In this document: in pieces, positions 49,263 to 56,341 of the stretch
How positions within the stretch are numbered: the stretch's first letter is position 1
How the letters are laid out: each line of letters starts with the position of its first letter
NCBI GenBank assembly: GCA_020344215.1
Contig: CP070815.1
Coordinates: 2,925,248-2,989,247, forward strand
DNA: 64,000 nucleotides
Direction of reading: 5' to 3'
DNA from: Gemmatimonadota bacterium
Lineage (GTDB): Bacteria; Gemmatimonadota; Gemmatimonadetes; Palauibacterales; KS3-K002
Made by a program: the position numbers and the translations under genes
The notes under the pieces: model-generated
Told to the model about the DNA's origin: nothing
Seen by the model: the letters and a program-made list of their open reading frames with translations, nothing else
Databases searched by the model: none

Positions 49263-49446
49263 GTGCTCGCGGTCGCCACACCGTCCTCGATCCTGTAGCG
49301 CTATGGCTCCTGTGGGGTGATGCGCGCAGCGTTGTTGCGTTCACGTATGGGCGGTCGCATCTTGCAGACCTGTGGGGTAGCCTCCAAAGCCAAGAACGCG
49401 CGGATTGCTGGAACGAGGGCTGGGTCGCCCGCGGTGCGCTGTCTTC

Positions 49447-51507
49447 ATGTCCGATCTCTTTGATCAGTTTCAGACGGAACTAGCCGACCGCTACGCGGTG
49501 GAGGGCGAGATCGGCCGCGGCGGCATGGCGACGGTCTACCTGGCGCAGGATCTGAGGCATGACCGCCGGGTGGCCGTCAAGGTCTTGCTGCCGGAGCTCT
49601 CGACCTCCCTCGGCACCCAGCGGTTCCTGCGCGAGGTCAAGATCGCCGCGGGTCTCCAGCACCCGCACATCTTGCCGATCTACGACTCGGGTGAGGCGGC
49701 CGGTCTGCTTTACTACGTCATGCCATACGTCGAGGGGCAGACGCTCCGCGACCGACTGGAGCGCGAGACCCAGCTGCCGATCGGAGATGCCCTACAGATC
49801 ATACGCGACGTAGCCAATGCCCTGAGCTTCGCTCACAAGCGTGGGATAGTACACCGGGACATCAAGCCCGAGAACATACTCATCTCGGAGGGCTACGCGG
49901 TCGTCGCCGACTTCGGGATCGCGCGGGCGCTCACCGAGGCAGGCGGTGACAAGCTCACACAGACCGGTGTCGCTATCGGTACGCCGGCCTACATGAGCCC
50001 CGAACAGGTGAAGGAGGGCGCGCACGTGGACGGTCGCAGCGACCTCTATAGCTTGGGGTGCGTACTCTACGAGATGTTGGCCGGGCAACCGCCGTTCACC
50101 GGGGCCACCCCCCAAGTAATCATGGCGCGGCATGCCCTCGATCCCGTGCCGCCGCTACGTACGGTCCGCTCGACCGTGCCGGAGTCGGTGGAGTGGGCCG
50201 TCGCCCGGACGCTGGCCAAGGTGCCCGCAGATCGCTTCACCTCCAGCGAAGAGCTCATCCAGGCACTGACCGCGGCAATCGAAGCACCGGGGCTGACCAC
50301 GCCACCGACCGGTGAGTTAGTGCCGTCCTTCTTCTCCGAGCTCAGGCGCCGACGGGTCTATCAGGCCGCTATCCTCTACGTGGCCATTGGCTTCGGGGTC
50401 GTCGAGGCAGCCGACATCACCTTCGAGGTACTCGGGTTCCCAGACTGGATGATGACTCTCGTTGTCATCGGCGCACTCCTCGGCTTCCCTGCCGCCCTGG
50501 TCATGGCCTGGATGTACGACCTGACGAGGCACGGGCTGAGGCGTACTTCGCCCTGGGGACTGACGCCGCCCGACACGTTGCGGACGCGTGGTGTCTCCTT
50601 ACCGCGAGCGGGGCTCGTGTCCCCACCACCCGCGACCATCGACCAAGTGTTCACGGGAACCACGGTCCGCGTCACTCCGGACTTGGACCGGGTCGCCGAG
50701 AGGCCGACGACGCCACTCTACGGCGAGGCTGCTGTTGCTCCGGTGGCCATGAAGGAGCCGTCCCCGCTTCTCACCAGCAAGATCGGACTTACCTCGCTGC
50801 TGGCGTTAGCCTTCTTCGTCAACTGGCTGGAGACGACGCTCGAGACGCGGCTCGGTGCTGATTCGGCCCTCGTCTCTGATCTCAGGCATCATATGGCGTA
50901 CGCAGTCCACTGGTTCGAGGGCCACTTGAGCTTCGAGTATCACGATGTGACGAACAGTATCGCCACGATCGGTTACTCGAGTTCCTATTTCTTCCTCTTC
51001 CCCCTGCTTCTTATCGGAGTTGGCTTGGCGCTCGCCCGCCGGCCCGATATCCGGGCGTATCGTGTGTTCTCGCTCGCCGTGTTGATCGACTACGCGCTGA
51101 GCTTGCCCTTCTTCATCTTCTTCCCGATCCCGGAGCGCTGGGCATATTCGGAGTCGGGCGCCATGCTGCTGTCCGACAAGTGGTCCTCGCAGTTGATCGA
51201 AGCGGTTCGCCCGATCAGCGGGCTCGACAACTGCTTCCCGAGCTTCCACGTGTCGCTCACAGTGGTGGTCGTGCTTCTGGCTCTCTTGTACGGACTACGC
51301 CTGCGATGGAGCATCGTCGCGCTGGGGGCTACGGTTGTTCTCTCGACGTTCGTCCTCGGGATCCACTGGATCGCCGACGTCATCGCCGGCCTAGCGCTCG
51401 GCGTCTTGAGCGTGATGCTGGCGCTTCGTGTGGACAACAGAATCCCCGAGGACGTGTGGCAGTTTGTGGACATCCCGTTCGAGGGCACGGGGCCGGCACC
51501 CGAGTAA
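49447..51507 (+). CDS. Ser/Thr kinase fused to a PAP2/Aur1-like membrane domain
   Basis: The 686-residue protein starts with a complete kinase (about 17-280: GEIGRGGMATVYLAQD, VAVKVLL, HRDIKPENILI, DFGIAR, GTPAYMSPEQ). A two-helix module follows (SELRRRRVYQAAILYVAIG to DLTRHGLRRTS, about 297-375). The C-terminal half (about 440-670) is a multi-helix domain with CFPSFHVS at about 597-604 and GIHWIADVIAG at about 637, matching the PSxH and HxxxD motifs of PAP2/Aur1-type lipid phosphatases or phosphotransferases. Such a fusion would put phosphorylation control and lipid head-group chemistry in one protein. ATG 49447 is used; an upstream in-frame start adds only 14 residues. The PhnD-like gene begins 15 bases after it. 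Confidence 0.9.
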   Translation: MSDLFDQFQTELADRYAVEGEIGRGGMATVYLAQDLRHDRRVAVKVLLPELSTSLGTQRFLREVKIAAGLQHPHILPIYDSGEAAGLLYYVMPYVEGQTLRDRLERETQLPIGDALQIIRDVANALSFAHKRGIVHRDIKPENILISEGYAVVADFGIARALTEAGGDKLTQTGVAIGTPAYMSPEQVKEGAHVDGRSDLYSLGCVLYEMLAGQPPFTGATPQVIMARHALDPVPPLRTVRSTVPESVEWAVARTLAKVPADRFTSSEELIQALTAAIEAPGLTTPPTGELVPSFFSELRRRRVYQAAILYVAIGFGVVEAADITFEVLGFPDWMMTLVVIGALLGFPAALVMAWMYDLTRHGLRRTSPWGLTPPDTLRTRGVSLPRAGLVSPPPATIDQVFTGTTVRVTPDLDRVAERPTTPLYGEAAVAPVAMKEPSPLLTSKIGLTSLLALAFFVNWLETTLETRLGADSALVSDLRHHMAYAVHWFEGHLSFEYHDVTNSIATIGYSSSYFFLFPLLLIGVGLALARRPDIRAYRVFSLAVLIDYALSLPFFIFFPIPERWAYSESGAMLLSDKWSSQLIEAVRPISGLDNCFPSFHVSLTVVVVLLALLYGLRLRWSIVALGATVVLSTFVLGIHWIADVIAGLALGVLSVMLALRVDNRIPEDVWQFVDIPFEGTGPAPE

Positions 51508-51522
51508 CGCTTGCGAGATTCT

Positions 51523-53190
51523 ATGCGGCTTGAGACGAGGGACATAGGTTCGAGATTGGCCAGACTGGTTCTCGCGGGACTGGCGAGCGTCACCCCCATT
51601 TCGTCGGCGGTCGCTCAGGAGCAAGTCACCTTCATCGAAGTGGCTCTCGATGAGGAGACCCGGCGCGCCGATGAGAAGCTGCGTCGTTACCTGGGCAGTG
51701 AGGCCGGCCTGATGTTCGTCTCTGAGCGGCCTCAGGAATACGGCGCGGTCATTAACCGCCTGGCCAACTGGGACCCTGAGAGGGGCGACTTTCTGGCCCG
51801 CGTTACGCCGTACGCTTTCGTGGCGGCGGAGATGCTAGGGGCTGACCTCGAGATCTTCGCCTCCTACGTGAGCCGGGCGACGGGGGGCACGACCTATCAC
51901 TCGTATTTCGTGGTGAATAGGGAGCGGTTCACCGACCGGCCCGAGCTGGCCAACCTGGTCGAGTACCTGAGGAGTCTGGACGCGCCGGCGACGTTCATCT
52001 ATCATAACAAGTTCAGCACCTCGAGTTACTTCCTGCCGTCCCTCTTCTTCCGCGGCCACGGCATCTACAACATGCCGGGGTCTACCGAGTACCACACGGC
52101 GATTCACAGCACTAAGCTGGGGAACAGCAGCTCGAACCTGGTGCGGAGCGTCGCACTGGGCGAGTTCGACCTGGCGGCCGTCTGGGACGGGACAAAGACC
52201 AAGTTCGAGGTTACGGACAGCCTCTACGACAGATACGGGAGCAGGGTCCACTTCATACAGCTGCCCACCAACCTGCCGAACGATCTGCTGGTCGGGTCCG
52301 CCTCGATGGACTCGGCCAGTCGGGCCAGGATTCGGGAAGCGATTCGCGGGATGGGCCCGGAGGAGATCGACGAGGGCGATTTCTCGACTTGGCGCGACAT
52401 AAACAGCGCGGCGGACGCGCGTCAGGCGCTGGCCGACCTGCGGTGGCTGGCACGCGAGCGACCGGCCCCGGTGACCGTCGATGTGAGAACGCCGGCCGCG
52501 GGGAGCGTCCCGGAAGCGTATCTGGAGGCCGCGCGGCAGGCGGTGCGGCTCTCCGGAACCGAGTTCGTCAACTACGACGACGACTTTCACGCGCACCGCG
52601 ACTACGTGTGGACCCTCGAGCTGATACACGATGGTGCCATCGAACTCACCAGCCGAATCATCGGAAGCGAGATCGATGACCAGAGACTTCAAATCAGCTT
52701 CAAGGATACCGAGGATCTCACGAGGCGAATCGGTACACTCCTCCACTCGCGGATGCACAGGATCCGCTACGTTTGGCCGTATCGGGCCGAGCACCCCACC
52801 GTGATTCGTGACGTCGGCTTCAGCATCCCGCCCGACGCCAGCGTGAAGGTGAAGAGGATCAGCTGGCAGGACGCTCAGCGTAACCTCTTCCTCGAGGACG
52901 CCGAGTTCGACGCACAGGTCGGCCACTCCGACTTCTTCAGGTTCGAGCTCTACCCGAACTTCATTCCAGCCGACGACGGTGCCTTCGGCTTCGATCCGAT
53001 GAGCAACGTCTCCTATCGGGTCATCCTCGTCCGGCCCGAGGCGGAGCGACCTCTCTTCCGCGTACTTACGGTCGCCTTCGTCGTCCTGCTCGTCTTGGCT
53101 GCCGTCGCGGCCTTCGCCAGCGTATGGCGGCGGCGCGCGGCCGCTGCGGTTTCCGATCCGCGACTGACACCGCCCGGGGCGACCGGCTAG
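51523..53190 (+). CDS. PhnD-like periplasmic binding domain anchored by a C-terminal helix
   Basis: The 555-residue protein has a signal peptide (LVLAGLASVTPISSAVAQ) and a PhnD-like phosphonate/phosphate-binding domain (about 35-300: RRYLGSEAGLMF, ARVTPYAFVAAEMLG, TYHSYFVVNRE, SVALGEFDLAAVWDG). A beta-rich region of about 200 residues without known motif follows (DFHAHRDYVWTLELIHDG, VRISWQDA-like), then one membrane helix near 515-540 (VAFVVLLVLAAVAAFA) and a short basic tail. Ordinary PhnD proteins lack the second half and the anchor, and no phn ABC transporter genes are here. It may sense rather than import its ligand, together with the kinase fusion encoded 15 bases upstream. ATG 51523 is chosen over TTG 51511. 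Confidence 0.8.
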   Translation: MRLETRDIGSRLARLVLAGLASVTPISSAVAQEQVTFIEVALDEETRRADEKLRRYLGSEAGLMFVSERPQEYGAVINRLANWDPERGDFLARVTPYAFVAAEMLGADLEIFASYVSRATGGTTYHSYFVVNRERFTDRPELANLVEYLRSLDAPATFIYHNKFSTSSYFLPSLFFRGHGIYNMPGSTEYHTAIHSTKLGNSSSNLVRSVALGEFDLAAVWDGTKTKFEVTDSLYDRYGSRVHFIQLPTNLPNDLLVGSASMDSASRARIREAIRGMGPEEIDEGDFSTWRDINSAADARQALADLRWLARERPAPVTVDVRTPAAGSVPEAYLEAARQAVRLSGTEFVNYDDDFHAHRDYVWTLELIHDGAIELTSRIIGSEIDDQRLQISFKDTEDLTRRIGTLLHSRMHRIRYVWPYRAEHPTVIRDVGFSIPPDASVKVKRISWQDAQRNLFLEDAEFDAQVGHSDFFRFELYPNFIPADDGAFGFDPMSNVSYRVILVRPEAERPLFRVLTVAFVVLLVLAAVAAFASVWRRRAAAAVSDPRLTPPGATG

Positions 53191-54787: not shown

Positions 54788-56341
54788 ATGAGCATACAGC
54801 TGTTGGCCGAGAAACCGGTCTTCTTCACGGCGAGGTCAGCAAGCACCTTCGAGGAAGAGCAGCATGGCCTGCTACTGACCCGGCTGAGGCTGGTGCTGAT
54901 CCTCGGGTTCGTCGTCGCGCTGGCCGCCCAAATATTCTACGGCATCACCGGGCTTGATCCCGAGGTGCAGACCGTCTTTGCACCGTGGATTATCGGCATC
55001 TACGCTCTGTATGTTGTGTCCATCGGTCTGGCGGCGGCGCTGTTGTTTCTCCGTGACTGGCATACTCGTGGCCTTCTGATCATCGACTATGCCGTAATCA
55101 CCTTCAACATCCTCCTATCGCAGTTCATTGCCGTGGCATTCGACCTGAACGAGATCCCCACATTCGCGATCTCGATCTTGCTTTTCGTGCACGCCGCCTT
55201 CATACCCGTCCCGGTCGCCTCGCAGGTGGGGCTGGCTGTGACCGCCGCCCTGGGGTTCCCGTTAATCGCAGGTCTCGGCTACGCACTGATCCCTGAGCTG
55301 CAGGCGTACTGGTCGGCGAACGGAGGGATCGAAGCGTTTCGCGCTCCGGTCATCGAGGGGACGTTTCAGCTCGCGATTATTGCCGCCATCTCCGTCGTCT
55401 TCACCAAGGCACTCTACCACATGCGTCTGACGCTTCACCGGGCGAGACAACTCGGCAGCTACGTGCTCGAGAGAGAACTCGGCAGTGGCGGTATGGGCGA
55501 TGTGTACGTCGCAGAACACGCTCTGATGTGCCGGCCCACTGCTATCAAAGTCCTCAAGGCGCCGGCCGGCGAAGGTGACACATCCCTGGCGCGCTTCGAG
55601 CGTGAAGTTCGCCTGTCGGCGACGCTCACTCACCCGCACACCATCACTATCTACGACTTCGGGCGTACCGGACACGATACGTTCTATTATGCCATGGAGT
55701 ATCTGGAGGGCTTGAGCCTCGAGGAACTGGTGGATCGGTTCGGGCCCGTGCCGCCCGAGCGCACTGCGTTCATCCTGACTCAGGTCTGCGGTTCGCTGGC
55801 CGAAGCTCATGCCAAGAACATCATCCACCGCGACATCAAGCCGTCAAACATCTTCCTTACCCAGCGTGGCCGTCTCTACGATTTCGTGAAGGTCCTCGAC
55901 TTCGGCCTCGCGAAACAGATCACCGCGGACGAGAGCATCACCGCCGTGGGCACCCTGCTCGGCACCCCGCGCTACATCGCCCCCGAGGCGGTCAGTGAGA
56001 TGGGGGCGCTTGACCAGCGGGCCGACCTCTACGGCCTCGGCGGCGTGGCGTACTGGATGCTCACAGGCCGGCCGCCCTTCGACGCGCCCACCGCCGTCGA
56101 GCTAGTAGTTCATCACGTGAAGACGCCCCCGCGAAGGCTGGGCGAGGTCTCCGAGCTCCCCATCCCTCCGAAATTGGAGGCCATCGTGATGAGGTGCCTC
56201 GAAAAGGACCCCCAGGCTCGGTTCGAGAGCGCCGAGGCATTGGAGACCGCCCTCGCCACAGTCCGCTTCGAGAAGCCCTGGACCCACGAGCGGGCCAGGG
56301 AATGGTGGACGCTCCACTTCCCGCCCCAGCCCCCAGGCTAG
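54788..56341 (+). CDS. Ser/Thr kinase with N-terminal multi-helix membrane domain
   Basis: The 517-residue protein begins with about six hydrophobic segments (about 28-212, for example LVLILGFVVALAAQIFYGI, IIGIYALYVVSIGLAAALLF, FQLAIIAAISVVFTKAL). A complete kinase follows (about 225-490: LERELGSGGMGDVYVAEH, AIKVLK, HRDIKPSNIFLT, DFGLAK, TPRYIAPEAV). Kinases with the membrane part first are less common than those with the kinase first, and the membrane part could be the sensor. No strong ribosome binding site precedes ATG 54788. It lies just behind glnA and may read through from it, since no terminator is seen between them. Confidence 0.9.
   Translation: MSIQLLAEKPVFFTARSASTFEEEQHGLLLTRLRLVLILGFVVALAAQIFYGITGLDPEVQTVFAPWIIGIYALYVVSIGLAAALLFLRDWHTRGLLIIDYAVITFNILLSQFIAVAFDLNEIPTFAISILLFVHAAFIPVPVASQVGLAVTAALGFPLIAGLGYALIPELQAYWSANGGIEAFRAPVIEGTFQLAIIAAISVVFTKALYHMRLTLHRARQLGSYVLERELGSGGMGDVYVAEHALMCRPTAIKVLKAPAGEGDTSLARFEREVRLSATLTHPHTITIYDFGRTGHDTFYYAMEYLEGLSLEELVDRFGPVPPERTAFILTQVCGSLAEAHAKNIIHRDIKPSNIFLTQRGRLYDFVKVLDFGLAKQITADESITAVGTLLGTPRYIAPEAVSEMGALDQRADLYGLGGVAYWMLTGRPPFDAPTAVELVVHHVKTPPRRLGEVSELPIPPKLEAIVMRCLEKDPQARFESAEALETALATVRFEKPWTHERAREWWTLHFPPQPPG

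Follow-up and report, generated by a model that had tools for sequence, protein, structure and literature searches.

The question raised by this locus is what a protein of the phosphonate-binding type does when it is anchored in the membrane and encoded right behind a Ser/Thr kinase fused to a PAP2 membrane domain. The two genes lie in a window of 64,000 nucleotides, that is, the whole stretch of DNA that was analysed (Gemmatimonadota bacterium, contig CP070815.1, positions 2,925,248 to 2,989,247 of the forward strand). The original prediction, made from the letters of the window, described the second gene as a PhnD fold devoid of its ABC transporter, followed by about 200 further residues and a C-terminal helix, and proposed a periplasmic sensor for a phospholipid head group that reports to, or supplies, its neighbour. 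The features of the locus are collected in Table 1.

Table 1. Coordinates in the window of the putative receptor, of its kinase-PAP2 partner and of their parts.
Feature	Position	Strand	Remarks
Ser/Thr kinase fused to PAP2 membrane domain	49447..51507	+	ATG at 49447, frame opens with TTG at 49405; Pkinase 175 bits, PAP2_3 46 bits
Protein kinase domain, cytoplasmic	49492..50250	+	HRDIKPEN and DFG read in the translation; aa 30-282, numbered from the TTG at 49405
PAP2 core	50767..51453	+	RP, NCFPSFH and GIHWIAD motifs intact; PAP2_3 and PAP2 Pfam matches
PhnD-like membrane-anchored receptor	51523..53190	+	555 aa; frame opens with TTG at 51511, ATG at 51523 taken as start
Probable signal peptide	51523..51618	+	Ends ...AVAQE; hydrophobic stretch aa 12-30; judged from sequence
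Bilobed binding domain, PhnD/PtxB/AioX type	51619..52464	+	STS loop S165-T166-S167
Alpha/beta domain, LptE / TolB-N / PelC type envelope-lipoprotein fold	52459..52764	+	aa 313-414; Z at most 9.1, middling
All-beta region	52777..53034	+	aa 419-504, seen in the models; no fold assignment
C-terminal transmembrane helix and short Arg-rich tail	53062..53118	+	aa 514-532, strongly hydrophobic

The Pfam search of the receptor gave one match over cut-off, PF12974 (Phosphonate-bd), which covers aa 44-282 and scores 59.1 bits (cut-off 27). No Pfam match over cut-off was obtained for the residues from about 313 to 505, and the NCBIfam model of phosphonate substrate-binding proteins, TIGR01098, scored 25.8 bits on the receptor, far below its cut-off of 112 (112.05). 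The PhnD fold, the additional residues (about 190) and the terminal helix agree with the layout first described, as does the spacing, given that the kinase-PAP2 gene ends 15 bases before the receptor starts. The mature receptor contains no Cys, and its gene is single-copy in the window genome. A second PF12974 match in this genome was considered as a copy of the receptor and rejected: this weak match belongs to a protein of 823 aa (L084:1041-3512, C1 near 4.59 Mb) that is anchored in the membrane and has two halves resembling binding proteins, and which by eye looks to be of the tandem TAXI/NMT1 type.

The AlphaFold model of the receptor had a mean pLDDT of 70, with values mostly between 72 and 94 per ten-residue block in the binding lobe, where one block was at about 66. 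The lobe (residues 31-318) matched the structures of ArrX, HtxB, PtxB, PhnD and AioX with Z of about 20-22.6, and also that of the sterol-binding protein BstB (7t1m) with Z of 17.6; the profile of the whole receptor sequence found no match in the PDB even at E 10. Because the fold search with the whole model reached only the binding lobe, the C-terminal part was modelled alone (pLDDT 75.7, pTM 0.74). Using VIA-align, its alpha/beta domain matched proteins of the LptE/TolB-N/PelC/CsgG kind, with Z of 9.1 for LptE (84 residues, rmsd 2.5) and of 6-9 for many related lipoproteins. A Foldseek search with the same region returned nothing at E 0.001, and the final 90 or so residues, an all-beta region in the model, received no fold assignment. 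The modelled LptE/TolB-N-type fold is common in envelope proteins and would by itself be no pointer to function. L012 was excluded from the structure alignments, since it contains N.

When the receptor was aligned with E. coli PhnD, the phosphonate loop Ser127-Thr128-Ser129 fell on S165-T166-S167, Asp205 on D254, and Tyr47, which we take to be a pocket residue, on Y97. Y97, S165, T166 and D254 are invariant in 18 of 18 genomes, and S167 is present in 17, being replaced by A in G087. H195, which lies two positions away from where PhnD His157 aligns, is found in 14 of the 18 and is replaced by S, Q, Q and N in G348, G081, G082 and G421, respectively. On the residue roles that PMC5908839 gives for the PhnD and AioX pockets, the putative oxyanion-binding half of the receptor pocket is conserved. 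Against a firm assignment of the ligand class stand the replacement of H195 in these four sequences and the fold relatives of the receptor, which bind anions, sugar phosphate or sterol.

The receptor was found in 19 genomes, namely six Gemmatimonadota (G000, G001, G003, G007, G237 and G348), 12 Nitrospinota and one member of the Methylococcaceae (G081). These derive from searches that gave 4 hits among 80 relatives (window genome included) and 5 among 395 Gemmatimonadota, two sets that overlap, 12 among 77 Nitrospinota, and 1 among 369 genomes of the class of the Methylococcaceae member, this one being the seed; a contig scan of close relatives only gave 13 receptor loci. A specific PAP2 subfamily adjoins the receptor in 18 of the 19 genomes, so that the neighbourhood first noticed in the window is conserved across phyla. 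The PAP2-core profile matched 12 of 77 Nitrospinota genomes, precisely those that have the receptor and next to it in every case, and 3 of 298 Gemmatimonadota, again all with an adjacent receptor; the pairs of G007, G348 and G081 were added separately. In the remaining genome, G237, no PAP2 match was obtained; its record consists of short pieces joined by 100-N gaps, and this neighbourhood (bin75; G237/G088, L008/L038) was set aside. In the chromosome record of bin75 (L038, CP070666) these pieces measure about 1.3 kb, and the gene neighbourhoods there are untrustworthy. The pair counts exclude two sequences: in G424 a second copy (C160) that stops where its contig stops, and in G007 a further receptor fragment (C253) whose front is missing. 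In L049:1-1590, also from G007, a second C-terminal fragment of the receptor continues in frame into a metallopeptidase-like HEMGH motif, possibly as an artefact of assembly or frame.

The gap between kinase-PAP2 and receptor measures 15 bases in G000 and 24 in G001; in the nine receptor/PAP2-TIR loci that were measured, the genes overlap by up to 4 bases or lie up to 10 bases apart. In G003 (L007), a single frame of 1205 aa, whose C-terminal end enters N, encodes kinase, PAP2 and binding domain. In G007, the C-terminus of PAP2 and the binding protein share one frame, and the front of the kinase-PAP2 gene sits at another contig end; in G348, the kinase-PAP2 gene stops at a contig end and the PAP2 tail opens the contig of the receptor, in a separate frame. 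The trees of the receptor and of PAP2, each built from 18 genomes, share their main groups and differ in the placement of G348 and in the interior of one clade. The distances in the two families correlate with r = 0.98 over the 18 genomes, a value that includes the common species signal, and the agreement of the trees is largely what would be expected from shared inheritance alone.

The cytoplasmic output differs between the groups while the pair is kept. In all five Gemmatimonadota with PAP2, a kinase precedes the PAP2 domain; in the 12 Nitrospinota and in G081 (13 of 13), a TIR domain follows it. The gene order is inverted as well, with kinase-PAP2 before the receptor in the former group and the receptor before PAP2-TIR in the latter. 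With the usual PAP2 topology, both the kinase and the TIR output domains would lie on the cytoplasmic side. The TIR domain of the PAP2-TIR protein (gene at L012:7694-8866) matched that of human SARM1 (6o0v) with 118.8 bits and an E value of 2.2e-33, 58 of 134 residues being identical (43%), and this has to be read as likeness and not as orthology, because the PDB holds few bacterial TIRs. The next other family followed at E 4e-4. SARM1 is the nerve-death enzyme of animals, and the alignment to 6o0v shows that the DW..KEI context of its NADase glutamate is kept. SARM1 carries ARM and SAM domains, whereas the partner in the Nitrospinota and Methylococcaceae has PAP2 instead, only PAP2 and TIR being recognised by Pfam. 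The survey in PMC7075850 is reported to have found no bacterial SARM1 homologs.

These observations point to the receptor being the periplasmic subunit, anchored by a single helix, of a two-part membrane signalling complex, with the PAP2 protein as transducer and interchangeable outputs. We assign to this reading a probability of roughly 0.57. The PhnD-type domain would close on a small ligand, probably with a phosphate-like oxyanion, and the TolB/LptE-like and beta domains would couple this closure to the polytopic PAP2-type partner. The PAP2 part would then relay the signal to the cytoplasmic output, that is, the Ser/Thr kinase in Gemmatimonadota and the SARM1-like TIR in Nitrospinota and Methylococcaceae. 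The conserved pair supports well the coupling of a sensor that reports to its neighbour, as proposed at the outset; we infer that the two proteins touch, that the signal runs inwards, and that PAP2 may act as transducer with catalysis being optional. A precedent is offered by AioX, a PhnD-fold protein which, according to PMC5908839, is the sensor of the membrane kinase AioS. The arsenic-oxyanion sensors AioX, ArxX and ArrX resemble the receptor in using the PhnD fold for sensing beside a membrane kinase (Z 20-22.6); there, however, the partners are a histidine kinase and a response regulator (PMC5908839), whereas the window has a Ser/Thr kinase-PAP2 protein. The C-terminal anchor, the extra domains and the PAP2 partner also set the receptor apart, and AioX uses a pocket Cys for arsenite, a residue that the mature receptor does not have.

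A different reading, which we regard as unlikely, is that the PAP2 domain is catalytically active, as a lipid phosphatase or a transferase of head groups, and that the PhnD-like protein captures or delivers phosphate or the head group, the kinase or TIR having a regulatory role only. The PAP2 catalytic His/His/Asp motifs are present in the window partner, which is recognised by the Pfam models PAP2_3 and PAP2, and the STS loop and Asp254 of the receptor pocket align with PhnD residues. The active-site residues were seen intact in 10 of the 18 pairs, window included; in G007 and G348 the contig end truncates the C3 motif of the piece that was aligned. Therefore an enzymatic role is conceivable, and this counts against a pure transducer reading. 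The partner shares motifs with lipid phosphatases of the PgpB/YodM type, and its profile matches 5jki weakly (E 0.0096), but it differs from these enzymes in being fused to a kinase or TIR and in having lost the catalytic His in one clade. In fact, in eight of the 18 pairs, which form this clade (G083-G087 and G423-G425), the RP motif is changed to RS or RA and the His following FPS has disappeared, and still the pair is kept; moreover, the output domain is swapped while the pair persists. The retention of the pair without catalytic residues argues for a transducing role of PAP2, at least in that clade, and it weakens the idea that the receptor supplies its neighbour as a substrate feeder.

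In the same eight genomes, the binding domain no longer has its WDG (aa 221-223). In G348, the WDG is replaced by FSA and both RP and His are intact, so that the two losses are concordant in 17 of 18 genomes; they probably derive from one event. By our reading of the comparison with PhnD and AioX, the WDG may lie close to that side of the pocket which determines specificity.

It would also be conceivable, though we hold it to be quite improbable, that the locus is a self-killing module of the abortive-infection type, in which envelope damage is sensed outside and the TIR NADase, or the kinase, fires inside. The SARM1-like TIR with its NADase-glutamate context fits this picture, and so does a gene for a protein with a TPR-S domain, a middle part lacking a domain assignment and a class III (guanylate) cyclase domain (L012:4179-5966 and homologues), whose catalytic residues look complete by eye. 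This gene directly precedes the receptor in 11 of the 12 Nitrospinota, the contig of the twelfth ending there, and is absent in the six Gemmatimonadota and in G081. Pycsar consists of a cyclase plus a TIR effector, and the Nitrospinota loci are similar in that a gene for a class III cyclase adjoins one for a membrane or TIR output; they differ, however, in that the PAP2-TIR protein has no cyclic-nucleotide-binding domain among its Pfam matches, and the cyclase is missing in Gemmatimonadota and Methylococcaceae. The PADLOC search gave general kinase and TIR matches only: the kinase matched PADLOC kinase models through its kinase domain alone, but no PADLOC model matched the receptor or the cyclase. 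Nor was any relative found among plasmids or among viral contigs, where 11 pattern matches contained none. The chromosomal neighbours (fmt/def-like genes) are conserved in L013, L014, L015 and L018, and together with the concordant trees they look like vertical inheritance, which argues against a self-killing module.

A variant of the signalling reading, in which the ligand is hydrophobic or a lipid and not an oxyanion, appears very improbable. It draws on BstB, described in PMC10942540 as a PF12974-fold sterol binder of Methylococcaceae, the structure of which is among the matches of the receptor model. Binders of phosph(on)ate and arsenic oxyanions scored higher, however, and the pocket residues Y97 and S165-T166 occur in every one of the 18 sequences.

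As for an ordinary role in phosph(on)ate import, PF12974 is over cut-off in the receptor, and six of the 12 Nitrospinota have a PhnE over cut-off elsewhere in the genome. None of the six Gemmatimonadota has one: in the window genome, the best PhnE (TIGR01097) score is 35.3 bits against a cut-off of 216.7 and belongs to a generic permease, in line with the initial view that no ABC transporter goes with the receptor. Ten of the 12 Nitrospinota own another, much stronger PhnD (at least 216.9 bits), which adjoins a PhnC-like ATPase in the one locus inspected (L085, by eye). Around the PhnE loci L071-L074, neither a PhnD nor a PhnC-like gene was found in the short flanks, two of which were also checked by ORF list. 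The receptor resembles PhnD, PtxB and HtxB in the bilobed fold, the STS oxyanion loop and the aligned Tyr and Asp; it differs from them in having a membrane anchor and an extra domain, in the TIGR01098 score and in being in frame with PAP2 in two genomes. The PhnE distribution, the separate PhnD/PhnC-like loci and the PhnE flanks thus speak against the receptor being the obvious partner of an importer, and the PhnE and PhnD searches of these genomes showed no phn gene set having it as such. The reading as an importer component that stands here by chance, already largely refuted, was rejected as hardly credible.

Returning to the two-part signalling complex, binding-protein-gated transmembrane signalling is of a known kind; what we rate as new is the membrane core, along with its exchangeable outputs. 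No description of a PhnD-PAP2 pair, or of PAP2-TIR or PAP2-kinase proteins, was found in the open-licence literature, and a text search of PMC7159879 gave no mention of TPR-S, PAP2 or phosphonate. More tentatively, and at less than even odds, we consider that these proteins may form a class of receptors, with a periplasmic protein of the PhnD type gating a PAP2 fold that has turned from enzyme into transmembrane transducer and that fires a kinase in some phyla and, in others, a SARM1-like, NAD+-cleaving TIR. Bacteria would then have an equivalent of the death signalling of SARM1, controlled by a sensor of small molecules outside the cell. If true, one and the same membrane core would let a surface receptor for a phosphate-like signal drive either a kinase of eukaryotic type or a TIR resembling that of SARM1. 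Both the switching of a TIR enzyme across a membrane and the use of a lipid-phosphatase fold as signal transducer would then be open to testing. The reading also corrects an easy misannotation, namely that of the receptor as a phosphonate uptake protein.

A few observations concern other permeases and the surroundings of the locus. Two of the PhnE-like permeases (L073:1489-2679 and L074:973-2130) have a long N-terminal extension, with neither PhnC nor PhnD in the short flanks, and G421 contains a phnC-phnD-like pair about 720 kb from a PhnE-like permease. The radical SAM gene upstream of the pair in the window is common to G001 (L009) and missing before the L007 locus, as judged by eye, and was not counted as part of the system. 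In G001, the gene that follows the receptor and faces it (L009:7697-9301) resembles by eye an enzyme of the alkaline-phosphatase superfamily, and the glutamine synthetase-like gene that lies downstream of the window receptor is not at the same place (by eye). Downstream of this glutamine synthetase-like gene, the window contains at 54788-56341 a second membrane-bound Ser/Thr kinase, in which a hydrophobic N-terminal region precedes the kinase domain (aa 225-487).
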